Shown here piece after piece: positions 6,755 through 62,669 of a DNA stretch of 64,000 bases. Source of the DNA: Owenia fusiformis (taxonomy: Eukaryota; Annelida; Polychaeta; Sabellida; Oweniidae); assembly GCA_903813345.2 (NCBI GenBank), contig CAIIXF020000346.1, positions 64,001 through 128,000 of the forward strand. The letters run 5' to 3'. The position numbers and the translations under genes are program-made. The first letter of the stretch is position 1. The number at the start of each line of letters is the position of its first letter. The notes beneath the pieces were generated by a model, which searched no databases, had not been told where the DNA came from, and saw only the letters and a program-made list of their open reading frames with translations.

Positions 6755-7530
6755 AAAAACGACAAAGTTTTGTAGTCCCCCAAATCCTGTAGATCAGAGC
6801 CACATAGTCCCGTTCGTCAAAAGTTAACGTGCAAAAGGCCCAAGTTTTGTAGTTCCAAAAAATTTCCTAAGTTTTGTAGTTCCAGAAAACTTCCTAAGTT
6901 TTGTAGTTCCAAGAATCATCTAAGTTTTGCAGTTCAATAACTTCCCTCAATAAGCCAGTTAATTCATCTAGATTCCAACATCAGTGGCTAATAATCATTT
7001 ATGACTATTTCCTCGGGCTAATAATTAGCAGAAAATTTCCTAAGTTTTGTAGTTACAAGAATCATCTAAGTTTTTCAGTTACCAAAAACGACAACGTTTT
7101 GTAGTTCCCAAAATCCTGTAGATCAGAGCCACATAGTTCCGTTCGTCAAAAGTCAACGTGCAAAAGGCCCAAGTTTTGTAGTCCCAGTGTGAATATATAC
7201 ATATTTATACAACTTTTGACAAAGTGGTAGCCACAAAATCCAAACAAATTTGCAAATATTTCACTGAGGGCAAAGGGATATATTTTGGAGGTCAATTTGA
7301 GAAAAAACGACAACGTTTTGTAGTTTTCAAAATCCTGTAGATCAGAGCTACATAGTTTCGTTCGTCAAAAGTCAACGTGCAAAAGGCCCAAGTTTTGTAG
7401 TCCCAGTGTGAATATATACATATTTATACAACTTTTGACAAAGTGGTAGCCACAAAATCCAAACAAATTTGCAAATATTTCACTGAGGGCAAAGGGATAT
7501 ATTTTGGAGGTCAATTTGAGAAGATTTTGA
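6755..7530. repeat. Tandem duplications built on 'gttttgtagt'
   Basis: A ~220-bp block occurs twice almost identically (about 7083-7302 and 7303-7522). It runs from 'cgacaacgttttgtag' through 'tcagag.cacatagtt', 'caacgtgcaaaaggccc' and 'gtgaatatatacatatt' to 'ggtcaatttgag'. A diverged partial copy lies at about 6755-6860. Between them the short unit 'aagttttgtagttcc' is reiterated. The near-identity of the last two copies suggests a recent duplication. Confidence 0.8.
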
Positions 7531-12199: not shown

Positions 12200-13000
12200 T
12201 TTTGAAGACTTCCCAATACCCTAATAAAAGATACAATAATACATGTTTATCAGGCATTAAGGTATTGTTACAGGATATTCTAAAAGCAATGTAGAAACAC
12301 TTATAACTCCACCAAAATAATGTTTGCAAAATTGAAAAGAAAATAAATTAATAGGTCGACTATTTAATAAATATATAGTTATTCAAATATCTAAATAGGT
12401 AAAATATTTGAATAAGTCAAATGCATAGTGTTGACATAGTTAACCCTTGCAAAAAGTTAAAAGAATTTAAGCACACGACTCAATGAATTGTGGATGATTT
12501 AAGTCACTCATGCTACCGCACTAAAATGTCTGAGTCACATTTGCTCCGACTTTCAATCTGGCATCAATAATGGAAAATGTGACTAATGTATTATGTCAAA
12601 ATCGGTCAAAAGCAACAATGTATGGTTTGGTATTGACATATGTATAAAACTAAAGTTGATAATACGAGGGTTGTCCCATATTACTCAAGTCTCTATCTAC
12701 AACATTAGCAATAGAAATTGAAAATATAGAAAAAGTTGCCAAACTTATGGAGGGGGTGTAACATTAACGTATGATCCAGGAGGTTGACGATATAATTGAT
12801 CTTGTACTTCAGTACTTGTAATAAACAAACACTTTTGCCAAAGAAGTGAATAATTGTCAAGAAAGACAACCAAATAATTGAGGACTTCGTATAATCTGAA
12901 ATCGTGCCCGAAATTATAATACACTAATTACATGAATACAATGAAATAGCCCTACCTTAACTTAGCAGTTGGATATGGGTATCTTTTGATTCTTCTTTTC
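12200..13000. other. Unannotated AT-rich sequence with one mariner-type end
   Basis: At 12664 there is 'tacgagggttgtcccat', an inverted-repeat end also seen (inverted) near 29897 and 30299. Its partner is not visible and may lie in or beyond the gap. Otherwise no gene or structured repeat was recognised. Confidence 0.4.
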
Positions 13001-13500
13001 NNNNNNNNNNNNNNNNNNNNNNNNNNNNNNNNNNNNNNNNNNNNNNNNNNNNNNNNNNNNNNNNNNNNNNNNNNNNNNNNNNNNNNNNNNNNNNNNNNNN
13101 NNNNNNNNNNNNNNNNNNNNNNNNNNNNNNNNNNNNNNNNNNNNNNNNNNNNNNNNNNNNNNNNNNNNNNNNNNNNNNNNNNNNNNNNNNNNNNNNNNNN
13201 NNNNNNNNNNNNNNNNNNNNNNNNNNNNNNNNNNNNNNNNNNNNNNNNNNNNNNNNNNNNNNNNNNNNNNNNNNNNNNNNNNNNNNNNNNNNNNNNNNNN
13301 NNNNNNNNNNNNNNNNNNNNNNNNNNNNNNNNNNNNNNNNNNNNNNNNNNNNNNNNNNNNNNNNNNNNNNNNNNNNNNNNNNNNNNNNNNNNNNNNNNNN
13401 NNNNNNNNNNNNNNNNNNNNNNNNNNNNNNNNNNNNNNNNNNNNNNNNNNNNNNNNNNNNNNNNNNNNNNNNNNNNNNNNNNNNNNNNNNNNNNNNNNNN
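13001..13500. other. Assembly gap (500 N)
   Basis: There are exactly 500 consecutive N characters. The round length suggests a placeholder of unknown true size. The open frame crossing it is an artefact. Confidence 0.99.
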
Positions 13501-14055: not shown

Positions 14056-14489
14056 AGGAAAATGAAATAGCATTATCTAATGATAATAATCATGTTAAAC
14101 ATGTAGCTTGGACAAAAGTAACTAGTACGATTAGAATGGTTTATTGTGAAAAGATTACAAACACGTTAAATAAGATTTTGATAGAAATGCATAGAAAAGA
14201 GCATAAGTTGACCAATGATAAAATTGATTTGTATTTACAAGAGATTGTCAATGTAATTCACGAAGTAGCTGGGGAAATGTTACCAATTAAGAAATTCAAA
14301 AAGCACCAAAAGCCTTTCTGGGCACCTGGTCTTACGGTACTAGTTAAAAAGCGCAACAGTTTATGGCATCTGTGGAAAGACGCTGGCAGGCCTAGGAATG
14401 GTGAGTTATTTCAACAGTACAAACTTTCAAAAAAAGTATTTTCTAAAGCTTTCTACCATGTGGAGTTAGAATACGAAAACATTATATGA
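14056..14489 (+). pseudogene. LINE linker fragment between endonuclease and reverse transcriptase
   Basis: The frame contains 'HVAWTKV' near its start, then 'KKFKKHQKPFWAPGL', 'KKRNSLWHLWKDAGRPRNGE' and 'YKLSKK.FSKAF'. This order (W.K, KPFW..L, K+R..LW..W, YK.sKK.F) is the typical linker ahead of the reverse-transcriptase domain in CR1/L2-like non-LTR elements. It has no upstream endonuclease and no downstream polymerase. It stops at 14489, exactly where the hAT-derived frame begins, so two broken elements abut here. Confidence 0.7.
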
Positions 14490-14958
14490 CTTCCAAGATC
14501 TGTTCACGGTTGTAGACCTCATTCTATCCTTACCTGGTAGTACAGCAGCTGTTGAGAGGGCATTTAGCAAACTAAAGCTTCTTAAAACTTCTGCGAGATC
14601 CAGACTCACAAACAAGACATTGAATTGTCTCATGACAGTAGAATTTGAGGCAAGTCAATTTTCTTGTACACAGTTGTTTCACTTTCAGTGATCTGACATT
14701 GGCCTAATCATCTAACTTATATTTCATTCAAGTCATGTAGTAACTATAAATAAATATCTTTTTATCTTAATTCAGTCCCCATCAATCACTGAGTTCTCTC
14801 CTGATGAGGCAGTAGATCTATGGTACAACAAACAAAACAGGAGGCCAAGTTATGACAGACAGAAGCATCCCAGGCCCCATACATCTGTTGCTGAAGCTGT
14901 TGATCCAGAAGATGCTACCTCACAGGTCCATGTAGATCCAGTAGTCCAGTCAAAGTGA
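14488..14958 (+). pseudogene. hAT transposase C-terminus (dimerisation domain), two exons
   Basis: The first frame reads 'LILSLPGSTAAVERAFSKLK' followed by 'LKTSARSRLTNKTLNCLM'. This is the hallmark of the hAT C-terminal dimerisation domain (LP.S.A..ER.FS.LK...+..R..L). The frame joins in phase 0 to a second exon (14776-14958) through a probable GC-AG intron at 14650-14775. That exon starts 'SPSITEFSPDEAVDLWYN' and stops at TGA 14956-14958. An AATAAA sits at 14987. The catalytic RNase-H part is missing upstream. It may be the 3' end of a hAT element of the ZNF862/KIAA1586-like type, or an exapted gene truncated here. Confidence 0.8.
14650..14775 (+). other. Probable GC-AG intron in the hAT-derived frame
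   Basis: The donor reads GAG|GCAAGT, matching the strong consensus that GC donors usually need. The acceptor is preceded by 'ttttatcttaattcag'. Joining at these points keeps phase 0 and gives a continuous C-terminus. The nearby GT alternative would cause an early stop. Confidence 0.6.
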
Positions 14959-20019: not shown

Positions 20020-21160
20020 AGAATTTTTGTTGTAACAGATAGCAAAAAAGATAGCTTAACAGTATAACTGGTTTCAAGCAAATATGGTCTTCCTTATATT
20101 TTATTCCATTTTTAAAAGGAAAACAGTCATTAGAAGTGTTTAATTTTTTCGGTCAAAATGGCTAATTCATATTTTGGTTGGCTAAAAACTTTTGAAAGAA
20201 TAAGCCAGAATGGCTAACAAGTTTTTTCAACTATCGTGATCTCTGATTTATCCCATAGTTTAGGTCCAAGATAATATTGCTAAAGCTAAGATTGGCTTTC
20301 CCAGTGCATAAATTTCTTGAATCTTATTGGTCGAATTAGCGGATGTATTGGCATAAAACTGGTTAATTATTTCTAACATAATTTCGTTCTGATTTTTAAC
20401 CAATCAAAACCCTGGAATTTTAACTCCAAATTTTTCCTGCACTCCTTTTTACTTCATTCACAGTAAATAAACCCATACGTCAACATCCTATATTTCCAGG
20501 TAAGAAATTTTGGATTCTGCTAAACTCAAACTTTGTAACCTTTATTTTTGTATTTTTGTAACACTTTCTTCCAGTGTGTGAGCTTTGCCTAAAAGCTGGC
20601 AAACAGCCAGTTGTACAGTGACCTACTTCGACCTATTGGTAAATAGGTTAAAATTTACTAAATAATAGGGCGGTCAAGATTAGCATAAAAATATATGTGT
20701 ACCTATCCCTATCCGTATGTGCAATAACAAATTATGTTAGGTATAGGTAAACAGTAAAAGGTAATAAAAACCTGGAAAGGCAAGGGCAAAGACAGCAAGG
20801 AAGCTAACATGGGAGAGCAGAGATCCAACATGGGAGAGCAGAGATCCAACTTGTGGAACTTACGGAGGAGGGTACCTGGCATGTCATGTTCAGTCAACAT
20901 GAGGTTTGGGCAAATTAGGTTCAATTCTTATGCCGGGCATAAGAGTAGATCTGTCTTATGCCGGGCATAACCTCTTCCAATAATGATACAGAATAAGATC
21001 ACATGTAATGACAGTGCTAGATGTAATTTACAAATTATTATTTTATGAGATGCTTGAATTTATCTACATAATTCCTATCTTAGTGTAACGAACTACATTA
21101 CATGTCATTATTTAAGTATACTTGATACACATACAAATTTCTATTTGGTATATTTGACTT
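20020..21160. other. Unannotated interval with short palindromes and a 22-bp duplication
   Basis: 'aacatgggagagcagagatc' is tandemly duplicated at about 20807-20850. Two palindromes built on 'ttatgccgggcataa' lie at 20927-20943 and 20955-20970, 28 bp apart. Otherwise no coding sequence or known repeat was recognised. Confidence 0.5.
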
Positions 21161-25069: not shown

Positions 25070-25683
25070 CAAGAGAGCTTGCCTCCATGGCTGCATTGGT
25101 CTCTCCATTCAGGCTTCCATAAAACTCTGGACCATTTATGTTCTACCTAGACTCACCTATGGTCTGGAAACAGTGATCTTCACAAGACAGACATGGGAAA
25201 ACTGAACCGTTTCCGAAGGAAAACCCTCCAACAATTACAAGGTATTCCCGAAAGAACTCCAAATGCAGCCACCCTACTCCTCACTGGTCAAATCCCAATT
25301 ACTGCTACCATCGACAAACTAGCCCTTAAGCTTGCATGTAGCATCTTTAGATTACACAATAGTACCCTACTTAAACAAATTGCAATCCACCAAACACTCA
25401 AATTAGAAACCAATACTTCACCATGGTTCACCCGAAAGATGGATGGAGCAAATCTGTGTACAAGGCTGCGAACATCAGATGTATACAAGACCTAATAACC
25501 AAGGCTAAAACAAAGCCCACTCTCAAATACTTATGTACGCTGCTGTCAACTCCAGGATCCCTACACAGCTCCTGGGCGAACAGTCACCTCAACCACCATG
25601 ATACACTCAGAGCAACTGTAAAGGCACGACTAATGACTGGTACATACATCCTCCAGTCCAACAGAGTTTCTCTTAACCAGTAA
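25070..25683 (+). pseudogene. LINE reverse-transcriptase C-terminal region, frameshifted
   Basis: Three successive frames read through a LINE C-terminus. 'KLWTIYVLPRLTYGLETVIF' comes first, and then 'KLNRFRRKTLQQLQGIPERT' followed by 'NAATLLLTGQIPI'. The last is 'VKARLMTGTYILQSNRVSLN'. The order YVLPRLTYGLE, L..fQ...L..iQg.P.RT.naA, vkarl.tGtY.LQsnR is characteristic of a marine-invertebrate non-LTR family. At least two frameshifts make it inactive. It is bracketed by the direct repeats at 24266 and 25729. Confidence 0.75.
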
Positions 25684-27632: not shown

Positions 27633-27872
27633 GTAAGTTATATAATACACCTTGGTTTCACCTATATTTCTGTTCTGATACACTTGGTGTGCTTCAGGCT
27701 GATCACCCAGAAATGGCAGAAAATCCAAAATGGCTACATTGACATTTACCCAGAATGCCCAAAAAGCAAACCAAAAAAGTGATTTTTCCAAAATTAAAAT
27801 GGTAGCCACAAAATAGGCAAGCTTTTAAACCTGAACTTACAGGAGGGACGTCTGTATTAAAGAGGAACCATA

Positions 27873-28128
27873 AAGTCGTGACCATTTAAAAAGAGAATGA
27901 ACCGTTTAGTCCCTTTTTGAAAACCCAAAAACGTAAAAACAGCAGTGCATTTCATGTATTTCAACCGTCAATGTTTTATTATCATATTAGATTTACAATA
28001 TTTATACAAAGTATATGAATATTTCATCAAACCAGATAAAGGTAAAATCATTTTATCAATACATATTCATGTTAATGTCTAGTAAAATTGTGTTTCTTCT
28101 TATCATATAGAATTTTCTATGTAGCTTC
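27873..28128 (+). repeat. Left terminal inverted repeat of the 10-kb element
   Basis: 256 bp aligned gap-free with the reverse complement of 37622-37877. The mismatch I can point to in the outer 230 bp is one base in a 'gggttt' run near 27920. Two more lie in and after the first palindrome. Confidence 0.9.
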
Positions 28129-28640
28129 TAACTAGACTTACAAATAAACTATTCTCAGATAGAAATTTCTATACAAATATTCCATTGTTTTTATGTATAG
28201 AAATTTCTATGCAGATGACTCTGGAAATATCAATTTTTGTCATTTTAATTGGTTATCGGTATAGAAATTTCTATGTGAAGGCCGTCGGAAAATAATAATT
28301 ATGTTACTGGTAAAACATTTCTCCTCGTATAGAAATTTCTATATTGATAGTCAAAAATAAAAATTGAAACGCTTCATAGAAATTTATATGGGTGCATATT
28401 TAAATTATGTTTGCTGGTATAGAAATTTCTATAAGGATAGAGTAGAAAAATAAAAATCGAAACTCTGTATAGAAATTTCTATGTGGCCCAGAAAAATTAT
28501 TTTCCTAGATTGCCTGCTGTATAGAAATTTCTATATAGTCAAAAATATAAATTGAATGCCTATGTAGAGATTTCTATGCGGGTGTAGTCGAAAACCTTTA
28601 GTGCTCAAAAATTAAGTTTGTCCGTATAGAAATTGCTATT
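28104..28640. repeat. Left palindrome array (about 11 x TAGAAATTTCTA)
   Basis: Copies or close variants of 'gtatagaaatttctatac' occur near 28107, 28158, 28196, 28258, 28328, 28374, 28418, 28467, 28520, 28564 and 28624. They are spaced about 40-70 bp apart with unrelated AT-rich spacers. Conservation of the palindrome but not of the spacers indicates selection or sequence conversion on the motif itself. Confidence 0.9.
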
Positions 28641-29106
28641 TGGATAAATTCAAAAAATTAAAATCGAATAATTATATAAAGAATGTTTGTAATTAGTCTT
28701 AAATTTTCGGCCTATTGTAATGGTATTTGAAATAGTATTTGAAAATATTTGGAGGTATAGCCAATGCAGTCAAATTACATCACAGCCAGAAAAATTATTG
28801 ATTTACATGGTTTTTTGTCGCTGAAAGTTATGAAAATAAAAAATAAAACATTGAGTGGCTCTGGCACATGGGGAAAAGGTTTAAGGATTTAAGCCCTTGA
28901 CTGAGTGCAATGTGGAATGATCATTCTTTGAAGATGTTGGTAATTACAAAAATATTTTTACCATGTCACCTAAAAGATACGAAATCACTAAAATGACATA
29001 TTTTAAATAACTTTTTGCAAGGGTCAAGATGGCAAACCACCAATTTTTATCTGTTGAGTGAACTTGTCACCTTTGCAACCACCTAAGGAATGACCTTGGA
29101 ATCGTT

Positions 29107-29300
29107 ATTGGTTATTTCACGCACAATGCGTTATGTGAAATACTGTGTTCGGATTGGCTGAAATCGGACACACCTTGTCTAGCTATGTGTGAATTCCAAA
29201 CTAATGGAGGGTAGTGTAGGCATAGTGTAATTTGACAAACTTAGTCTAGCCAATCAAAACACAGTATTTCATATAACTGCATTACATTCTATAACCAACA
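29107..29300. mobile_element. Imperfect foldback element
   Basis: 'ttggttatttcacgcacaat' and 'tgtgaaatactgtgttcgga' pair with the inverted 'agccaatcaaaacacagtat' and 'tctataacca' on the right. The arms are about 55-60 bp. Confidence 0.5.
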
Positions 29301-29887
29301 ACTCTCCACTATATGACCCACCCAAGGCCGTGTCAGATTCAATTAAAATCTGCTTAAAGATTAGTATTTTTCAAAATTGTACGGACATCGACAACAATTA
29401 GTTGATTTTTAGACATCGTATGGGCGCTGCGAGAACTTTACCTCGCACATAAAAAGTGCAGATGCCTAACCGATTTTTTCTCAATTAAACTCATCGGACC
29501 CTACCCTGTCGGCGCCCGTACGGTCACCGTAGGATTATCGTACGTACGGCTTTCGGTGATATCGTATGATCATCCTGTCATTTCGTACAACAATGCAAAC
29601 GTAATGATAAAATCAACTTGATTCTAATTACATTTCAAAAGTTTGCCAGAGACCCCCAACGCGGACATGGATGGGGAATTTGACAAAATGATATTGGCCT
29701 GTCTTGTTCCATACCCCGGGGCCACCATGGGAGCAAAATATCTGGTCAAGTATTCCCCATCCCGGGCCCTTCCCCCGAATCCATTCTATTTAAACATCAG
29801 AGTTACTTGTCAAGAGACTATACTCATTAATGTTGAGAGATAATATGGGTCACATTTGCTTCGATTTCCATTACTATACGATGAGTA

Positions 29888-30320
29888 TGTTGATCTTATG
29901 GGACAACTCTCGTATACTGTACAAAATTCCTATCCCTTTGTGCAATATTGTGTATCAAATTAATTTACAAACATTTCAAGTTGTTATCGTACCGCAATAA
30001 AACAATCAACATCATTTTTAATTTACATATTGTGGTTAAAAGCAAATATGGCCTTACTTCCCGTACTCAATCTACACCTGATTCTAATTTAAATGTTGCG
30101 AGATGACTTGCGAGATGACTACACGCTCTATTTTAGTTTTACTATTGCCATTAGAGATGTCATGATCTTACTTTTAGATTTTAGTTCACTAGTTTACTTT
30201 TTGAGCTTTTGTATCATCCATTTTCTCGTCCTTCGAACGTCGTCCAAAATAGTTCTCTGTATATCATTTTAAGATGTTAGAGCAAACATTTCAGGACTTA
30301 TGGGACAACCCTCGTATTCT
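29888..30320. repeat. Two same-orientation mariner-type ends
   Basis: 'cttatgggacaactctcgta' near 29896 and 'cttatgggacaaccctcgta' near 30299 face the same way. Both resemble the inverted end 'tacgagggttgtcccat' at 12664. The matching left ends are not visible, so these are truncated copies or solo ends. Confidence 0.4.
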
Positions 30321-32054
30321 GTACATGTAGATATAAACGTTCCACAATCGCCCATCATGATGATAAACCATGGCATCTCATTTCTTCTCAGCCCTGAGAA
30401 AGGTGAAACCGAAAGATGCTATGAGTATCAGAATGCAATCGCCATATGATCTGAACAATTCCAGGTACCGTAGTCTGTTATAAGTGTTAGAAGGAAGTTT
30501 TCATTTTCCTCTGTTGTGTCATATTCCTCGCCCAATAATCAAACAATATTTGTCTTCTTGATATGTAATCGAGAGTACCATGTGTGTACCCTCTGTCGTG
30601 GTATTTAGATATTCCAAGATGAGCGTTTGTGTTTTCATCGAAGATATATTTTGACTGAAACATTAATGAATGGAAGCTATAAAATAATGTATAAAAAGTT
30701 CAGGATTTCCATTGCGAGGACAGAATGATGTACCGTTTCGTTTTAAAATACATTTTTATAAAATCTGTTATAAAATACATGTATATCATAACCCAGCTTA
30801 TTATTGTATTAAGTGTTTTTATTAAAAACCTACCTCGTATGATCATGGTTTGAGTTTACACCGGTCGACCAGTCAATCCCCCAAACAGCAACCGACAATT
30901 AATCGCAGTGATATATCTCACCTTTCGTTTCACATTCGCATTTGACTCTAAATGACAACTAGTAATGGGCACTGGTATTTTGAATTCTTACGCCATTTTA
31001 TGCAAATCTCTTATTGTGCAACGATTAAAATGCTTTGATAGTACATTACGTTTGTTGTTCTTAAATTCCAAGTTGGTTATAATTACTGCATATTCAGGAT
31101 ATAAACTTGAACTAACTGCTGACCTGTGGACGTTATACGCAGTATTACAAATTACAATTACAATGATCGGTCAACTGGTCAAGTAGGAGTCTGTTTGATG
31201 AGTAAACTCAGGCTTGCGATTTGTTAACATACAATGTTACGCATCTCTTCAGATTGAAATTTACACAATAGCCCACAAGATTGAAAAGCACATTTCAATA
31301 TTGTATGATTTATGTATAAGGAGCTCCTCCCTTTATCTTTCCGGATTCACTCAAATGTATTAAAATGTACAAATATCTGCCTTAAGGCATGATTTAATGT
31401 AATTTGGGAGATGGTATTTTCAATATGTAAGCTTATTTAGTGACAGATTCAATGGTTTTATCAGTTGACTTCATGCACATGCATAGTAAGCCCCTGAGAC
31501 CTTTACATTAAAACCTTGTGTATATACCACGGTAAGATCATTCATATGTCAGGGTAAAAAAAGATAATTTAGTCAAGAGTCATCCTTCTCGGATCAATAC
31601 CTCAACAAGTCAATAAAGGATGATACAAAGTGTAGGCCTAAAATATTTTAAGGGTCACGATAAGTTGGCCATTTGGGCTAATAATGGCCTGCTTTGTCAT
31701 TAATCGGCCTCTTAATTTTCAAGCAACTAAACATTTGGAGTATAGGGGTCTAGACTTTTTCGTACGATTTTTATCAAAGTAGAGCAAACCCCATCACATT
31801 GCCAAAAGCTGGCTTCCCCCTCAATAAACTCGTGTTTTCGTGCCTGTGTCCAATACTCTTTTATACAAAAACATTATATTATAAACAGCTGGAAACTTTA
31901 TATCATTACTCACAATATTATTCGTCAGTCCAATGTTGTTTGGCAGTGGTACAACATATAGAAAATAGTTAAATAACAATGGCAAGAATATTGTAACGAC
32001 GATCTCAAAACTAAAAATAAACTACATATTATAAAGGACTTAAAATATTACCCT

Positions 32055-32852
32055 CTATCACACCAAACTAGTTCTTACCCGTTCTTGCCAGTCCTACGAA
32101 AACGTCGTAAAACGGGCTCAATCTGGCTGTGGTCGGGAAATATGTCTGAAATAATTAGCTTCTTCGTTCTTAAACAGTCTTCAATACGTCCATTTCGTTC
32201 GCAGTTCGTTCAGGTCGCACCACGTCGGTGTGCAACGTCGTAGAACGCGTCCCTTAGTCTAGAAGGTCAACATGACCTGATTACAGAACGGTATGGTCGC
32301 CATCGAATTTTGAATCGATTCAAAATTCTAAAATCACATTCCCGTCTGAGAACGTTCATAAAGTTCGTGAATAGACCTTAGAAAGTTGCAGCTACGTTCA
32401 TTCCGTTCGCACACAGTTTAAAACCAGTTTTGAAGAACGCAGTGGCAACTTGTTTGGTGTGATAGCTATATTTTTGCTAACTCGTTCATAAGTAGTGTTA
32501 AATACGTTCTTAATCAGTTTAAACCAGTTTGCAATTAGTTCTACCTCGTTCTCAACACGTCCTCAGACAGTTCAACTCGTTCTTAAAACGTCTCTAGGAG
32601 GATTGAAGTACGACGGTTCCGTTCGTAGTACGTCCAGCTCGTCGTTAGTACGTTGTCACTCATTCTAATTGTAGAACGTGACGACCACGAGAACATTTTG
32701 AGCATTGTCTAAGATCTAGAGGACCTACCCGTTCGAGTACGTTCGATGAAGTTTGTAAATAGATCCCAAACGGTTCTTAGTAGGTCCAGTCCGTTCGTAC
32801 ACAGTTGAAGCCCGTTTTCGAGAACGTAGTGAGGACTAGTTTGGTGTGATAG
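32055..32852. mobile_element. Inverted-repeat element rich in 'acgttc/acgtc' words, tandemly duplicated end
   Basis: It begins 'ctatcacaccaaactagt' and ends 'actagtttggtgtgatag'. A second right-type end, 'cttgtttggtgtgatag', lies internally at about 32449-32465, so two related units are joined. The body is packed with 'cgttct', 'acgttc' and 'acgtc' words spaced about 20 bp. There is no coding content. It is nested in the 10-kb element. Confidence 0.7.
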
Positions 32853-32996
32853 TAGGGTAAGGTATACGCAATAGTTAAACCGTGCATGGTGTTGCAATGC
32901 GTAAATATATCTTTTGTTATGATATCTACCTGAATACACTTGTCATTCTAACCCATTAAAATCAAACAGAATATCTCAATGATCAAATAAGATACA

Positions 32997-33378
32997 CACG
33001 CGGTTCTAACTTCGACCGTTAATTTGAATTTTTGACCTACCGGATGTTTGAAAATCAAGGATTACGAGTCTCATACTGCACCGTTTTCTTCAAACTTGTT
33101 CCATTCAAAGCATAACACAAATCCCTTTCTGATGGTACATTATTCTCTTCAACAGAGTCCCTACTTCCAGCGGCATTTTGGTCCCCAGTTGTAAGAAGGC
33201 CTTCTAACAGCTGGGGACCAAAACGCTGCTAGAACGAGGGACTCTTTACAATAAAGTAATGCACCGACAGAAAGGCAATTTTGTTCTGCTTATAATGGTA
33301 AAGGTTTGAAGAAAAACGGTGCAGTATGAGACTCGCAATCCTTGATTTTCAAATTAACGGTCGAAGATAGACCGCGTG
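32997..33378. mobile_element. ~380-bp near-palindromic foldback element
   Basis: The left half pairs with the right half: 'cttcgaccgttaatttgaa', 'gagtctcatactgcaccgtt' and 'agagtccct' each have an inverted match. The centre 'ggtccccagttgtaagaagg' to 'ctggggaccaaaac' completes the stem. The left arm has a ~24-bp segment missing from the right arm. It is nested in the 10-kb element. Confidence 0.8.
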
Positions 33379-33489
33379 ATACAGTCACGACAAAAACTGA
33401 GCAACTTATATACGAGTACATGTTTTATCTTGTGGATTAAAGTGGTGAGGTCAATTGAAATAAATAGAGAAGCGCATTGGCACAATATA

Positions 33490-33666
33490 CACTTCTACAG
33501 ATTTAAATCAGACATCAAGGAAAGGGTTCCAGATCGGTTCACATGTAACATTCACAAGTGCTCAGAACAGGGGGTACTGCATGATTTTGAAAGGATGTAT
33601 GACCGAAGCTACGGGCCTGATATCTCAATTCGATCCAGCCAATTTATTTCCGATAAAATCAGATAA
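33490..33666 (+). other. Open region upstream of the candidate spliced gene
   Basis: Two overlapping frames are open here for 50-70 codons; one contains 'DRFTCNIHKCSEQGVLHDFE'. A possible acceptor 'cacttctacag' precedes it at about 33490. I cannot choose a frame, so coding is only possible. Confidence 0.2.
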
Positions 33667-33868
33667 CACAACAGGCAAATATTCTAACTTGTCAAAGGCT
33701 ATTCTTTCATCATGTTTGGAGATAGAAATATGACTGATGCATATTTCTTTATTGGAGTCCACGGTTACCTCTTAAATGAAGTTATTAAACATTGTTAAAT
33801 CAACTAAACATGCCAACACTCTCAAAATTTGAACCAGACTTATAATATAGTGAGCATTATATACCTGA

Positions 33869-34252
33869 GACCTGATTCATCGTTTCAAAGTGGTAAAATG
33901 CTACCGTATGCGCAAGGGAGGAGACCATATTTACTCGATTGGGAATCACGAGAACATACAAAGAAAACGTTTAGAAGGAAACGCGAAACTTAAAGGTACG
34001 ATTTAAGTAGTATTATGATGTCGAAATTGATCAAATAAGACACACCATAAACACATTAAGGATACCTTATGCTATGCATGTACGTTTGGGACTGATACAT
34101 AATGTCTATTTTTTTGTTTTCTAGCCACGTATGTGATCCAGTACAGCTATACGCTTGTCCATAAAGAGTGTATTTTGAAGCACGTTGGCAAGTTATTTGA
34201 AGAGTTATACAAGAAGCAAGTTCGTTGTTTTGCTAACAATATGATGAATTGA
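33869..34252 (+). CDS. Candidate 3' end of a cargo gene in the 10-kb element (two exons)
   Basis: The upstream frame (open from 33869) ends at AAAG|GTACGA (33995) in phase 1. The downstream exon begins after 'tttttttgttttctag' at 34125 and stops at TGA 34250-34252. Joined, it runs 'GGDHIYSIGNHENIQRKRLE', a short link, 'ATYVIQYSYTLVHKECILKH' and 'VGKLFEELYKKQV'. The spacing of IYSIG, a downstream R, a Lys-Glu-Cys helix and a final aromatic patch is faintly like T5orf172/GIY-YIG-type domains. This is weak and by eye only. The intron would be 129 bp. The exon 1 start and any upstream exons are unknown. Confidence 0.35.
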
Positions 34253-34523
34253 TTCTGGTGGAAGATATACTTGTAAGTTAAACTTATTTAAATAGTTGCA
34301 CATATCTTTAAGAATAATATTATTGTGATTATTCCCATTCTAACTTGAGCTAAAAATAAGAAGGCGTATTCCTAATTCACACGTGTGGCATCTGGGAATA
34401 CATCATACAATAATAATTTAAAGATGAATGGGTACCTCAGTGGAATTGAATAATTATAAAACCGTTCACGCGTGTATCTCCTTCACATGTGCCTAAAGTT
34501 GCTTCTTCAGAAAATATAGCTTA

Positions 34524-34917
34524 CAAGGGTCGATCCAAAAGTTTTGCATCGTGTGCTCTAAAAATCTTAATACTTTATGAGTATTTTTCATATCTTATCT
34601 CATCCACCCCATATGTAGTAGTTTCATTCTGCGTAAAATAAGTAATACATTTGATCAGTAACATATTAGTTTTCTGAAAATGAAATAGCGCTTCAGTTGC
34701 TGAAATTACCAATACGGTTTAATTCATTCAAGCTCTACATACCCTGTTGTTGTATTGCTATGGTAACTAGATGCATATTATGTTGAATTTTGAATTCATG
34801 GTTTATCACACAAAATGAAGCTACAATGTAGGGGGCGATTAAGGCAAAATGTGTATATTATTCGTCAAAGAAATTTTTTTTAGAGCAAACGGTGGAGACC
34901 TTTTGGATCAATCCTCG
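34524..34917. mobile_element. 394-bp mariner-type MITE, TA target
   Basis: The left end 'caagggtcgatccaaaag' and the inverted right end 'cgaggattgatccaaaag' are flanked by TA (34522-34523 and 34918-34919). The subterminal 'gctctaaa' is also shared. The ends resemble mariner families with 'cgaggg.tgatccaaaa' termini. It is nested in the 10-kb element. Confidence 0.7.
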
Positions 34918-34949
34918 TACACCAATTTTTGAATTTGAACCTGATGTGA

Positions 34950-37110
34950 TATGTCATAAGTACAAGCGGATAACATAAGCAATTTGCATTGATCCATCTG
35001 AGACAGTCACGAGGTGGTGTTAATTTCACAGTTTGAAATGCTATATCTTGTAATCCCACTCCATATGTTAATAGGATTTTAAAGACCCAGATAGAACCAC
35101 TTGTTGTAGTCGTACACAATGATATCAATATTTGATATGGAAAACTTCTTTTGAAGGGACTTTTTGTTCGAAACATTCTCAACTAATTTCGAATGATTTT
35201 GTTGTCAGTTGTCAAACACATTAAATAAGCAGTGATAATATAAATCCCATCGATTGCAAGCATATATATATACATGTATACCGATCTATTTTATGTTGGA
35301 AAATTATAACAATTGTTTGGGGAACGAAAGAGAAATGAACTCACAAACGCAGGAAAGTGGTTCAGAAAAAGAGACACATACATTTAAAAATACAACATTA
35401 CAATCAGCGACGGCTTTTCGAATGATGTTGACCCTTGAATTGCCTATGAGCAGAAAAGATTTTGAATTTAAATATATGTTTTGACACAAAAGGATGAAAC
35501 TAAAGATTGACACTATTAGAAAAAATGAAACCAGTAAAATAATAGTAAAATAGAATGGTAGATTAGTGAAATTGTCATTTTAAAGTATATCATCTAATTT
35601 GTCATGTTTCGTTAATATTTTGTATATGTACAATTTTCATAGTAGATAAATATAAAGCTTTCTCATGGAGAAAGTTTTCCATGATTAAAATGAATACTTC
35701 AATTCAGAAATTATAAATTTATTGTGTTAGATCAATCCTCAAGTGTGGTAATTTTCCAAATATTACACAGTATGTAGATTGTATGATTAACAAGTTCAAT
35801 GGTGTCATCACATGCGATATACTTATTTATAGATTTGTCTTAAGAGTCAGCCCTTACAAATACATTTAACATTAATAATCAAATTATGGTGAAAAGAAAA
35901 AAGGAAATAAAAGAATCAAAATAATTTCAACAAAATAATTTCATTGTAGGATGAACCTCAAATGCAATATATGATTTAATAAATGAATGTTGTGGTTGAT
36001 TCAGAACTCCTTCAACATTTATCAAGAAGGGAAAATTCATTCATATTAGATGCATATCTTTCATATGACCACACATGTTTTGAACGCTTGGTATCATCTC
36101 CAGAACTAAATACCGTATCGAATACTACCTACTCTATATGGTATAACCAAGTATGAGAGTACGAGACCACATTTTAGGACTTTCATCAAAATACAAAATA
36201 AAAAACTAAGCCTAAGCCCATCTTGGTATCAAATGATGCTCGATTGAAAGAAACTTATTCGCTTTTCCTTCCCCAATCGAATGATTTTTGATTTAGAGAA
36301 TGCCATTCGCTTTGTCCACCTTTTAATAATGACTGAATGATGAACCTGACCTTATTTGCCTACCTTAATGGCATTGGTGTTTAGCTCTGTAATTCTACTA
36401 GAGAAGAATTGACTTTGCTTCCAGGTAGAAAAGAGATAAAAAGAGATGGAGTCATTGCAGCCTCATTCGCCACTTGAGTAGACCAACCGTTGCGTAATAT
36501 AGACAGGTAAACAGGGCCGACAATATTTATCTGTGTGAATAATTAAGTGAACTATTGTGTTGCCCTATTCCATGACATTCCAAGAATTGGCAAGAGACTC
36601 GAGTAACCACTGGATTTATCCTACAAGTCTTGTACTTCATACCTGATACCTATTGTGTGCTGTAAACAGGCAGAGTCATTTAAAACTCAGATCTCTTTCG
36701 AACAAGAAGCTGCCATCAATTATGTAAAGATATATGCAGAGGGTGCGTGGTTATATAATTCATTCGAACATGACTGTATTCACGCCTTCTATAAACTGTA
36801 AACAAAGTCAACATTTCACCCGGGGTATATTCGCGAACAAAATCCCTGGTAATACGTGCAATGTGTGACGTCATAACGGCGGGACGTAGTAATGGCGGTT
36901 CATAATGAATATTAAAGATTACTGATAGACAGTTACTCTGGCATAGCCGAAAAGAGCACACATTCCAACGTCCATATTGCTCACCAGGAGCCGTCACCGT
37001 GAACAAAAAACATTGTGAGGAAAATTATGAAGTAAACATGTTGCATACGTTTTTGTGCATGTGTGGATACAACATTTTATCATATATTTAAATGAATAAG
37101 TGAATTAAAA
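34950..37110. other. Interior of the 10-kb element, right part: no gene recognised
   Basis: No homologous frames were recognised. 36790-36990 is GC-richer and includes a perfect CRE-like 'tgacgtca' at about 36867. A promoter reading leftward or rightward is possible, but no exon could be attached. 35200-36700 is plain AT-rich sequence. Confidence 0.35.
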
Positions 37111-37119
37111 TGTACTACA

Positions 37120-37640
37120 CCCGCATAGAAATTTCTATACAGGATTTTTATATCTATACATGCATTTTTTGACCATATAGAACTTTCTATATTGGCCATC
37201 AAGCAAAATTATTTTTCTGCGCCGCATAGAAATTTCTATACAGCATTTTTATTTATCGATCTTTTCCCTATAGAAATTTCTATACCGGCAACCAAAATTT
37301 ATATTTACACCTGCATAGAAATTTCTATACGAACACTTGTTTTAATTAGAAAGGCATCGAAATTTCTATACGGGGAGAAATGTTTTTCTGGTAACAGAAT
37401 TAGTATTTTCCGACGGCCTTCACATAGAAATTTCTATAGAGGTATTCAGTTTTAAATCTTCTGCTTAATCGGTAGAGAAATTTCTATACCGATAACCAAA
37501 TGTTCAATAACAAAATTAATATTTCCAGCCTCATCCGCAGAGAAATTTCTATACGAAAAGTCAACGGAGTCTTTTGTATAGAAATTTCTATCTGAGGATA
37601 GTGTATTTGAAAATATAGTTTGAAGTTACATAGAAAATTC
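37120..37640. repeat. Right palindrome array (about 11 x TAGAAATTTCTA)
   Basis: Copies or variants of 'catagaaatttctatac' occur near 37125, 37175, 37224, 37268, 37313, 37354, 37422, 37472, 37539, 37577 and 37629. Spacing is again about 40-70 bp. Beyond the outermost copy the spacers are mostly not inverted copies of those in the left array, although a few words recur ('cgacggccttcacatagaaa' has an inverted match near 28280). Confidence 0.9.
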
Positions 37641-37877
37641 TATACGATAAGAAGAAACACAATTTTACTAGACATTAACATGAATATGTATTGATAAAAT
37701 GATTTTACCTTTATCTGGTTTGATGAAATATTCATATACTTTGTATAAATATTGTAAATCTAATATGATAATAAAACATTGACGGTTGAAATACATGAAA
37801 TGCACTGCTGTTTTTACGTTTTTGGGTTTACAAAAAGGGACTAAACGGTTCATTCTCTTTTTAAATGGTCACGACTT
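37622..37877 (-). repeat. Right terminal inverted repeat of the 10-kb element
   Basis: This is the reverse complement of 27873-28128. It ends 'ggtcacgactt', followed by CATA. Confidence 0.9.
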
Positions 37878-38000
37878 CATAATAATTTAGAACAGATACC
37901 TTAACCTCATGTTTCATTTCTAATTCATGTTTGATCAAATTAAGTATACTATCACACATTGTAATTTTATTAATACATTTATACTTAAAATAAAATAAAC

Positions 38001-38780
38001 AAAGGATCTTGTACACCTGCCATTATGATCTCCCCATGAACAAAATGAGTCATTTTTAGGTGTAATATAAAGAATACAATGTTACATAATACTTTGGAAA
38101 ATATTTAAGCGTTTGGCCCACCATGGGCTGAAGTTGGGGTCATTAAGTTCAGCAAGGGTGTATTGACTTGACATTGGATGTGTTCTATTGACTTAACATG
38201 TGGATACCATCAGATTCCAATGGAGGCCATTGGTTTCTATTGATTTTCACAAAAATACCTAAAATACACTATGACCTGAATCGATTGCAAATTAAATAAT
38301 TTCACAATATGACACAAATGGTATTTCAGATCAGATGTGCAAATATAAAGTTTGCAATCGATTCAGGTCATACTTCAAATTAAAAGATTATTCATTTTTT
38401 TCATCATTTTTTCCTACAAAATGGCTATAGAAAAATGCTTCAAAAGCAACTTTTACACTTATAAAATCCCATATTATACTGTTATGATTCATTAATTAAT
38501 AACATATTTTGATAAGATGTAGGGATGTGTAGGATGCAAATGGATTTTGACAGACACAAAAAGACTTCCTGGTTTGGCATCTCTACCCATGTACACTTTA
38601 TGATCGAATATTGCCCTAAAAAGTGGCCCATTCATCAATACAGTGCTGAATATAGGTCAACAAGATACTAGTGTACATATAAATGTACTAATAATAAAAG
38701 CAGTATATTTATTTTGAAAAATCAGATGAATTTATTTTTCTTCATGGGGAGATCATAATGGCAGGTGTACAAGATCCTTT
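38001..38780. mobile_element. 780-bp element with perfect 40-bp inverted repeats
   Basis: 38001-38040 starts 'aaaggatcttgtacacctgc', and its exact reverse complement is 38741-38780. An inner hairpin pairs 'atgacctgaatcgattgcaa' (about 38270) with 'ttgcaatcgattcaggtcat' (about 38351). No target duplication was seen and no gene recognised. It begins only 120 bp beyond the 10-kb element. Confidence 0.8.
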
Positions 38781-41249: not shown

Positions 41250-41600
41250 TTACAGGTCCAGTGGAGTTGTGGGCACTGTCACCTAAATAACATTTACAAA
41301 AACAAAAAAAGAAGGCATGTTGTGTTGGAAGTGTGAGGGAAGGGAGCCAGTGGAGTTGTGGGCACTGTCACCTCAATAACACTTACAAAAAAGAAAGCAT
41401 GGTGCCTTGGACAGTGTGAGGAATGGGAGCCAGTGGAGCTGTGGGCACTGTCACTTCAATGAAAACATTTCCGAAAAAATTATGGCATGTTGTGTTGTAA
41501 GTATGAGGGATGGGAGCCATTGGAATTGTGGGCACTGTCACCTCAATGATAACATTTACAAAAGGAAGGCATTCAGTGTGAAGGATTGGACAACTAATTA
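41250..41600 (+). repeat. ~80-bp tandem repeat with a CGHCH-encoding frame, 4 units
   Basis: The block 'tggag.tgtgggcactgtcac' recurs at about 41261, 41350, 41432 and 41522. In one frame each unit encodes 'QWSCGHCHLN' or a close variant, and the last two units are open together (from 41407). It may be a minisatellite born from coding DNA; stops interrupt units 1 and 2. Confidence 0.6.
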
Positions 41601-41698
41601 TCATATTCGATGTTTGAGTTGAAAGGAGATTCTTTTGGAGGTTCAATGTCTTTTGATAACAAGAGGATTGGTGTTATAATGGTAGAAGTTCAAGTTCA

Positions 41699-41917
41699 AT
41701 GGAGGAGGTCATGTTGGAGAATTTTCGGATGGTTTGTAGTTTCATAAGGGTCATGGTTTGCACAATTGCTTTTGGTCTTAGGGTTGATATTCCAAATGTT
41801 GATCTAGTTGTGAATGTTGTTGTGAATTTTGGTGTTCCTAGGTCATTCCTTGATTATTTGCAGCAGGTAGGTCGGTGTGTTGGAAGTGTGAATAGGAAAT
41901 GTCTAGCATGGTTGTAG
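41699..41917 (+). pseudogene. RecQ-type SF2 helicase fragment (motifs V-VI)
   Basis: The frame reads 'IRVMVCTIAFGLRVDIPNVD' and then 'GVPRSFLDYLQQVGRCVGS'. These match RecQ helicase motif V (i+v..aT.AFG.G.d.p.v) and motif VI (Y.QE.GR.gR.g), with several substitutions: the second motif V Gly is Arg, and the QE and GR.GR positions are changed. No motifs I-IV precede it in frame. AcademH DNA transposons encode such a helicase, which is one possible source; a host RecQ pseudogene is another. Confidence 0.65.
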
Positions 41918-46104: not shown

Positions 46105-47325
46105 TACATTGAGCTCCATGTTAATTCATCAATCTCCAAACGACCCCCTGCAGAACAGTTCTAAAGTAATAAAGCCCATATTCCTAGTATCTTACAATAA
46201 CATGATTATCTTCAAAATAAGAAGGGATGTTTTTTCTTTTGCCTAGTTCCAAAGATATTGGAGTTTGAATTTTGGAAAATTCCCATTGGCTGCCATTATA
46301 AACCGCTATAATATGGCTTTATTAAAGTGTCCTTTTCTCAAAAAGTCCACCATGAAATTTTCTAATATTGTAGATTTCTATAGTTAATATATTGACTGAA
46401 AAGAAATCAAACAGGCACATTTCTAAAAATTTCTTATTTTTAATATATTTAGTCGTGAAGTTGTATAAAAAAACCTACATTGAGCCCCATGTTAATTTAT
46501 CAATTTTCAAAAGACCCCGTGCAGAACAGTTCTAAAGTCATAAAGCCCATATTCCTAGTATCTTACAATCACATGATTATCTTCACAATAAGAAGGGTTG
46601 TTTTTTCTTTTGCCTAGTTCTAAAGATATTGGCGTTTGAATTTTGGAAAATCCCCATTGGCTGCCATTATAAACCGCTATCAATATGGCTTTATTAAAGT
46701 GTCATTTTCTCCAAAAGCCTACTATGAAATTTTCTAATATTGTAGATTTCTATAGTTAATATATTGACTTAAAAGAAATCAAACAGGCACATTTCTAAAA
46801 ATTTCTTATTTTTAATATATTTAGCCGAGTAGTTGTATAAAAAACCTATATTGAGCCCCATGTTAATTTATCAATCTTCAAAAGACACCCTGCAGAACAG
46901 TTCTAGAGTAATAAAGCCCATATTCCTAGCATCTTACAATAACATGATTATCTTCAAAATAAGAAGGGTTGTTTTTTTTTCTTTTGCCTAGTTCCAAAGA
47001 TATTGGCGTTTGAATTTTGAAAAATCCCCGTTGGCTGCCATTATAAACCGCTATCAATATGACTTTATTTAAGTCTCCTTTTCTAGAAAAATCCACTATG
47101 AAATTGTCTAGAATTGCAGATTTCTATAGTTAATATATTGATTTAAAAGAAATCAAACAGGCACATTTCTAAAAATTTATTATTTTTGATATATTTAGCT
47201 GTGAAGTTGTATAAAAACCTATATTGAGCCCCATGTTAATTTATCAATCTTCAAAAGACCCCCCGCAGAACAGTTTTAAATTGTTGAAGCCCACATTCCT
47301 AGTATGTTAAAATAACACAATGACA
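46105..47325. repeat. 371-bp satellite, about 3.3 copies
   Basis: 'ttgagccccatgttaattta' starts units near 46109, 46480, 46851 and 47224. Each includes 'cctgcagaacagttctaaag', 'aagatattggcgtttgaatt' and 'tctatagttaatatattgac'. Copies are over 90% alike by eye, and the last is truncated. Non-coding. Confidence 0.93.
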
Positions 47326-62530: not shown

Positions 62531-62669
62531 GGATCCAATGGTCAAACTGGCGTGTGAGGTCCAATGGTCAAACTGGCGTGTGAGGTCCAATGGTCAAACT
62601 GGCGTGTGAGGTCCAATGGTCAAACTGGCGTGTGAGGTCCAATGGTCAAACTGGCGTGTGAGGTCCAAT
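62531..62669. repeat. 26-bp minisatellite, about 5 identical copies
   Basis: 'ggtccaatggtcaaactggc' plus 'gtgtga' repeats at 26-bp intervals from about 62532, almost without change, so the array is probably young and variable in length. Confidence 0.95.

Follow-up and report, generated by a model that had tools for sequence, protein, structure and literature searches.

What kind of element carries almost identical, palindrome-lined inverted ends around several kilobases of DNA, how would it move, and does the identity of its ends mean that it moved recently? These questions are raised by an element of ~10.0 kb at positions 27873–37877 of the window analyzed here, by which we mean the whole 64-kb stretch of Owenia fusiformis contig CAIIXF020000346.1 to which all coordinates refer. 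All of the results presented below are based on this single copy and on the DNA of this window. Our assessment, which draws on the sequence itself, is that the element is likely to be a non-autonomous terminal inverted repeat (TIR) DNA transposon, present as a single copy and mobilized in trans, with palindromes that would act as protein-binding sites and with a cargo-like interior, and that its family is probably new, although of a type already familiar.

The preliminary description of this DNA reported gap-free inverted ends of 256 bp with about three differences, and this is confirmed by alignment of 27873–28128 to the reverse complement of 37622–37877 (3 differences over 256 bp, without gaps), with a fourth difference at arm position 257. 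The outermost part comprises a left TIR at 27873–28104 (forward strand) and a right TIR at 37646–37877 (reverse strand), each of 232 bp, which differ from one another at a single position. Further inward, the arm similarity reaches to 716 bp on the left and 764 bp on the right, at 79% identity by BLAST, and in the outward direction it ends sharply at the CATA boundary on both sides. Inverted ends and a flanking target duplication, albeit a short one, place the element in the broad order of TIR transposons, and at ~10 kb it is, as had been noted, far larger than a typical miniature inverted-repeat transposable element (MITE). The terminal 24-mer has no additional copy at up to six mismatches in the window (there are two at seven mismatches, both outside the element), and on this basis we rejected a composite element, in which two full copies would surround host DNA. 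Joining the two flanks to query the window for an empty site returned only the flanks' own places and an adjoining repeat just outside the right end, which is itself a nested MITE-like structure: a 45-bp inverted pair (38001–38045/38736–38780, 98%) enclosing a palindrome at 38270–38372 with arms that are 78% identical.

The sequence CATA lies directly outside both ends of the element (27869–27872 on the left and 37878–37881 on the right), and the previously proposed 4-bp target duplication is thus exact on both sides. It is, however, not the only boundary compatible with the letters, as 27874–37877 with a 5-bp CATAA duplication (which makes the right end one base longer) and 27874–37876 with the one-mismatch 6-bp pair CCATAA (27868–27873) and TCATAA (37877–37882) fit as well. 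A scan for duplications of 4–9 bp within 2 bp of each end, allowing at most one mismatch, gave five hits with small shifts. Two random window positions share an exact 4-mer with a frequency of 0.006 (200,000 draws), and random position pairs share a 6-mer, one mismatch being allowed, with a frequency of 0.008, and the letters therefore do not choose between the 4-bp and 6-bp readings. We prefer the 4-bp CATA reading, in which both the ends and the duplication would be perfect and the element termini read AAG...CTT (AAGTC at the start).

Inside the outer TIRs, both arms carry a 16-bp palindrome with the consensus TATAGAAATTTCTATR, the first copy of which appears after 233 bp from either end, and which is present in 11 + 11 oriented copies at a spacing of 38–68 bp. 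The 11 palindromes of the left array (28106–28640, forward strand) lie in a part of the arms that is ~78% identical, while the 11 of the right array (37124–37644, reverse strand) stand in inverted register relative to the left array, with one extra unit on the inside. Searching the window with TATAGAAATTTCTATA at up to three mismatches, we obtained 23 matches, 22 of which fall in the two arms (11 + 11) and one at 21130; shuffled sequences gave a mean of 1.59 matches per window, and 0 of 100 reached 23, in support of the paired subterminal palindrome arrays of the preliminary description. We note that 12 of the 20 spacers between palindromes find their best match in a positional counterpart of the opposite arm (L1–R1 81%, L2–R2 65%, L3–R3 82%, L4–R5 88%, L6–R7 72%, and L8–R9 69%, for left and right spacers), and, since the outer spacers match in this way, both arrays are parts of one inverted duplication.

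The near-identity of the ends had been taken as a sign of a young, recently mobile element, a reading that is not supported once the whole length of the arms is considered. The outer 232 bp contain 1 difference, as compared to 98 differences among 454 aligned bases at arm positions 250–716, corresponding to a Kimura two-parameter (K2P) distance of 0.25 (Fisher p 3e-18). A change-point fit locates the transition 252 positions into the arm (support 228–252), with 2 of 251 positions differing on the outer side and 98 of 452 on the inner, and the improvement of this two-rate fit (2ΔlnL of 79) was equaled in 0 of 2000 permutations, the largest of which gave 20. TIRs, unlike long terminal repeats, are not made identical at insertion, and one age hardly accounts for near-identical outer and diverged inner zones. 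As the pairing of 12 of the 20 spacers places both zones in the same inverted duplication, we infer that this duplication is old, and that its outer zone has since either retained its identity or regained it. Selection acting on all 232 outer positions would be a less likely cause, given that the palindromes themselves show 9% variation; gene conversion, or copying from end to end during repair, would explain the sharp limit of the identity. Thus, the outer ends have probably been homogenized, and their identity therefore does not date the insertion: the element may have moved recently, with the TIR identity being no proof that it did. More broadly, this element cautions that dating DNA transposons by TIR identity is risky.

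The palindromes themselves have diverged less than the DNA between them. Across the alignment of 10 left palindromes (arm positions 233–716), the two arms differ at 15 of 160 palindrome columns and at 84 of 311 spacer columns (p 4e-6), as would be expected of binding sites. Folded as single-stranded DNA, a 22-nt consensus of the unit yields −2.3 kcal/mol (z −6.6, beating 199 of 200 shuffles) and the palindrome copy at 28106 yields −1.2 kcal/mol (z −4.3), and, since this single-strand fold is weak, a double-stranded binding site is judged likelier than a cruciform. On the simplest reading, the palindrome would be the site of a dimeric protein, and subterminal repeats have been proposed as secondary transposase-binding sites in transposons including Galileo (PMC3573991). 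No account of a palindrome array of this kind was found among the titles and abstract openings screened in the open-licence PMC literature, and the family may be catalogued in Repbase or Dfam. Turning to viral sequence, we considered as a possible relative an IMG/VR contig, the one found in a search with the paired-palindrome pattern, and rejected it as convergent, with 4 of its 6 motif matches lying in an AT-rich direct tandem repeat of ~54 bp, beside which stand open reading frames (ORFs) that look phage-like by eye. Among the viral contigs searched, none matched the terminal 26-mer exactly, and the 256-bp TIR had no match in a phage sequence set.

Between the arrays lies an interior (28661–37120) in which no coding capacity was recognized. 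The preliminary description had recognized no transposase, and a six-frame profile scan of 28120–37640 against Pfam, with stops masked as X, agrees with this, returning 0 families at E ≤ 1 in any of the 6 frames. As a positive control, the same type of scan detected a hAT transposase C-terminal dimerization fragment at 14440–14646 (E 4.6e-7; 1 of 9 translations). The ORFs of the interior (28690–37100) are no longer than those of shuffled sequence: the longest has 102 amino acids, a length attained in 67% of 200 shuffles, for which the mean is 112, and 7 measure at least 80 amino acids, a number attained in 24% of the shuffles, which contain 5 on average. The interior looks like ordinary genomic DNA of the organism, which could have been captured as cargo or built up in an old lineage.

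These observations can be accommodated by a mechanism in which a transposase encoded elsewhere would recognize the outer TIR and cut at AAG...CTT, while a dimeric protein, either the transposase itself or a helper, would bind the phased palindromes and help to pair the ends, with the interior being borne along as genomic cargo. The arm architecture would be old, as suggested by the K2P distance of its inner part, and its outer ~250 bp would have been re-made identical, most likely through end-to-end copying during post-excision repair, or through gene conversion. The palindrome arrays provide a concrete probe for the presumed trans-acting transposase.

A number of points weigh against this account. 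The flanking repeat is only 4–6 bp long, neither a second copy nor an empty site nor a trans-acting transposase was seen in the window, and no transposase was recognized in the element, although a transposase from a family outside Pfam, or one split into short exons, would be compatible with a null Pfam scan. The scan also missed ORFs at 14058–14489 and 25151–25495, which by eye we presume to be retroelement fragments, so that decayed domains are caught only sometimes; a protein search with the second of these ORFs gave one candidate and no hit. On the side of the arms, 8 of the 20 spacers (L5, L7, L9, L10, R4, R6, R8, and R10) cannot be matched clearly to a spacer of the opposite arm, and the inner-arm divergence may partly reflect rapid turnover of tandem repeats, besides age. 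Finally, the comparison of palindromes with spacers is biased toward conservation, as the palindromes were picked by consensus match and may anchor the alignment, an objection that is offset by the alignment of some left palindromes opposite non-palindrome letters.

Several other explanations need to be weighed against the same evidence. A narrower version of the account above would make the element a non-autonomous member of a named superfamily with 4-bp duplications, most plausibly Sola2, with the Sola2 transposase encoded elsewhere. Its one positive point would be the duplication: elements of the Sola2 type are reported to have 4-bp duplications that are AT-rich (PMC3627910), and CATA/CATA would fit this description, with the 5-bp and imperfect 6-bp readings of the boundary fitting as well. 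The Sola2-type examples of that source, however, carry short TIRs of 12–21 bp, and Pfam gave no match at E ≤ 1 in six frames here, although a non-autonomous member would be without a Sola2 transposase anyway; overall, we consider this assignment unlikely. The element could alternatively derive from a Polinton/Maverick, as a remnant or in non-autonomous form, with ends AGTCGT...ACGACT (27874–37876), a 6-bp CCATAA/TCATAA duplication, and an identity of the ends that protein-primed replication of the element as a linear molecule would maintain, from which homogenized ends would indeed follow. TIRs of hundreds of bp are shared with this group, being within the 46–1447 bp of intact vertebrate Mavericks, and AGTCGT is one letter off the (AGT)2 that, with (AG)3, is the common end motif of vertebrate Mavericks (PMC8097293); the 6-bp repeat fits with one mismatch, at the random frequency of 0.008 given above. 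In contrast, the 6-bp duplication carries a mismatch here, AGTCGT is not an exact match to either vertebrate motif, and the Pfam scan found none of the viral-type genes (protein-primed polymerase pPolB, integrase, ATPase, or capsid) in six frames. The element is also shorter, at 10.0 kb, than the 12.7–24.6 kb of intact vertebrate elements (PMC8097293), and non-autonomous forms surfaced in the literature excerpts only as the phrase "Polinton-derived". We therefore regard a Polinton/Maverick origin as distinctly improbable.

It is also conceivable that there was no insertion at all, and that an inverted segmental duplication or an assembly inversion set two 0.8-kb copies 8.4 kb apart, with CATA arising by chance. 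The single copy, the weak 4-bp match, and the inward drop in identity would fit such an event, which we nevertheless hold to be very unlikely, as the arms cease to resemble one another right where CATA begins, at either end, the terminal 24-mer recurs nowhere else in the window at up to six mismatches, and the arrays stand in mirror register. Still another proposal would have the palindromes serve expression of the host or the element rather than transposition. GAANNTTC, the core of a head-to-head heat-shock element, is kept in 19 of the 22 palindromes, and of its 40 occurrences in the window 19 are in the arms and 2 in the interior, such that the arrays could be imagined as stress-responsive enhancers. 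The flanking ATA/TAT and central AT are, however, conserved about as well as GAANNTTC, beyond what a heat-shock site needs, which argues against the heat-shock core being the whole function of the palindromes, and no gene to be driven was recognized in the interior (Pfam, six frames); we thus consider this explanation extremely unlikely. Finally, the element might represent an undescribed TIR superfamily, with a pair of mirrored arrays of phased palindromes that are read by a dimeric protein, and in which the outer ~230–250 bp are copied from end to end at or after transposition, such that the ends stay identical, the arrays drift, and the array marks the limit of the copied tract, a suggestion that we regard as improbable.

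The interior holds a MITE-like inverted pair at 29125–29283 (arms of ~35 bp, 89%), nested MITE-like repeats at 32048–32860 (inverted ends of ~40 bp, 87.5%) and 34522–34919 (inverted ends 81% over 43 positions), and a nested full-palindrome MITE-like repeat at 32997–33378 (94% identity across the outermost 32 positions of its arms and 82% across 308 aligned positions further in). A repeat end, TACGAGAGTTGTCCCATAAG, lies at 29895–29914 (reverse strand), with related copies (0–5 mismatches) at 30297–30316, 34522–34541, and 34900–34919 and, outside the element, at 12663; the latter, TACGAGGGTTGTCCCATATT, with close copies recurring inside the 10-kb element, resembles a mariner-type end. The earlier statement that most neighboring elements are decayed is roughly right, as 14 of the 15 other inverted pairs (E 1e-8 or better) are 73–91% identical, the exception being one 45-bp pair at 98%; this listing omits full palindromes, and its pairs are candidate elements. 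Among 12 flank translations, Pfam gave two weak matches below curated cutoffs, SAE2 (E 0.035) and Helicase_C at ~41.7 kb. The latter, at 41675–41881 (E 1.5e-4, 22.5 bits against a curated 23.5), is a possible helicase C-terminal domain fragment with 6 PDB matches, the best to helicase Q4 and RecQ (E 3e-4 to 1e-3) and then to DDX6 and PRP28; with stops on either side and a tandem repeat of an 87-bp unit nearby (41258–41572), it may represent either an exon or a copy in decay. Further tandem repeats are found at 7084–7522 (219-bp unit × 2, 98%), 46108–47317 (371-bp unit × 3.3, 91%), and 62534–62669 (26-bp unit × 5.2, 100%), an assembly gap of 500 N spans ~13001–13500, and no Rfam family reached its gathering score anywhere in the window.

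Returning to the likely non-autonomous transposon, we file it in no superfamily. By their published definitions, Ginger, Chapaev, piggyBac, MULE, and P differ from it in their ends or target duplication, and a single copy whose target duplication has more than one reading would be a slim basis for the earlier view that it matches no nameable superfamily. Ginger1 and Ginger2 have TGTNR ends with CCGG/CCGT or RTATAY targets, respectively (PMC2836005), as compared to AAGTC and CATA here; piggyBac targets TTAA (PMC5199201); and Chapaev has 5′-CAC...GTG-3′ termini rather than AAG...CTT, although its 3–4 bp duplication is compatible with CATA (PMC4079192). MULE/Mutator (Mutator-like) elements share TIRs of >100 bp and differ in their 8–10 bp duplication (PMC5225508), and the P superfamily, including Galileo, has duplications of 7–8 bp (PMC5199201, PMC2775673), whereas a search within 2 bp of the ends, tolerating one mismatch, found no repeat of 7, 8, or 9 bp. 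The element probably works like foldback-type non-autonomous elements such as Galileo and Muta1. Muta1, a MULE of Aedes aegypti, and its non-autonomous derivatives combine a TIR with a subterminal repeat array, and the derivatives retain both around variable interiors, some of them host-gene-derived; they differ in having 8–9 bp duplications, 12-bp repeats with 3–4 bp spacers, and a 145-bp TIR (PMC5225508). Galileo, the foldback-like P-superfamily element of Drosophila, shares long TIRs that are internally repetitive in some subfamilies, as well as copies without coding capacity (PMC2775673, PMC3573991), and differs in its 7-bp duplications and direct tandem repeats, as opposed to phased palindromes in arms of which only the outer ~232–252 bp are near-identical. 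In PMC2775673, 2 of the 4 Galileo copies compared have TIRs that are >99% identical within a copy and ~7% divergent between copies, the other two being, by that account, recombinant chimeras with ~6% within-copy divergence, which is a possible precedent for homogenized ends. Should other copies of the element described here also break their TIR identity at the first palindrome, they would provide a clean case for the Galileo-type question of how long TIRs stay identical.

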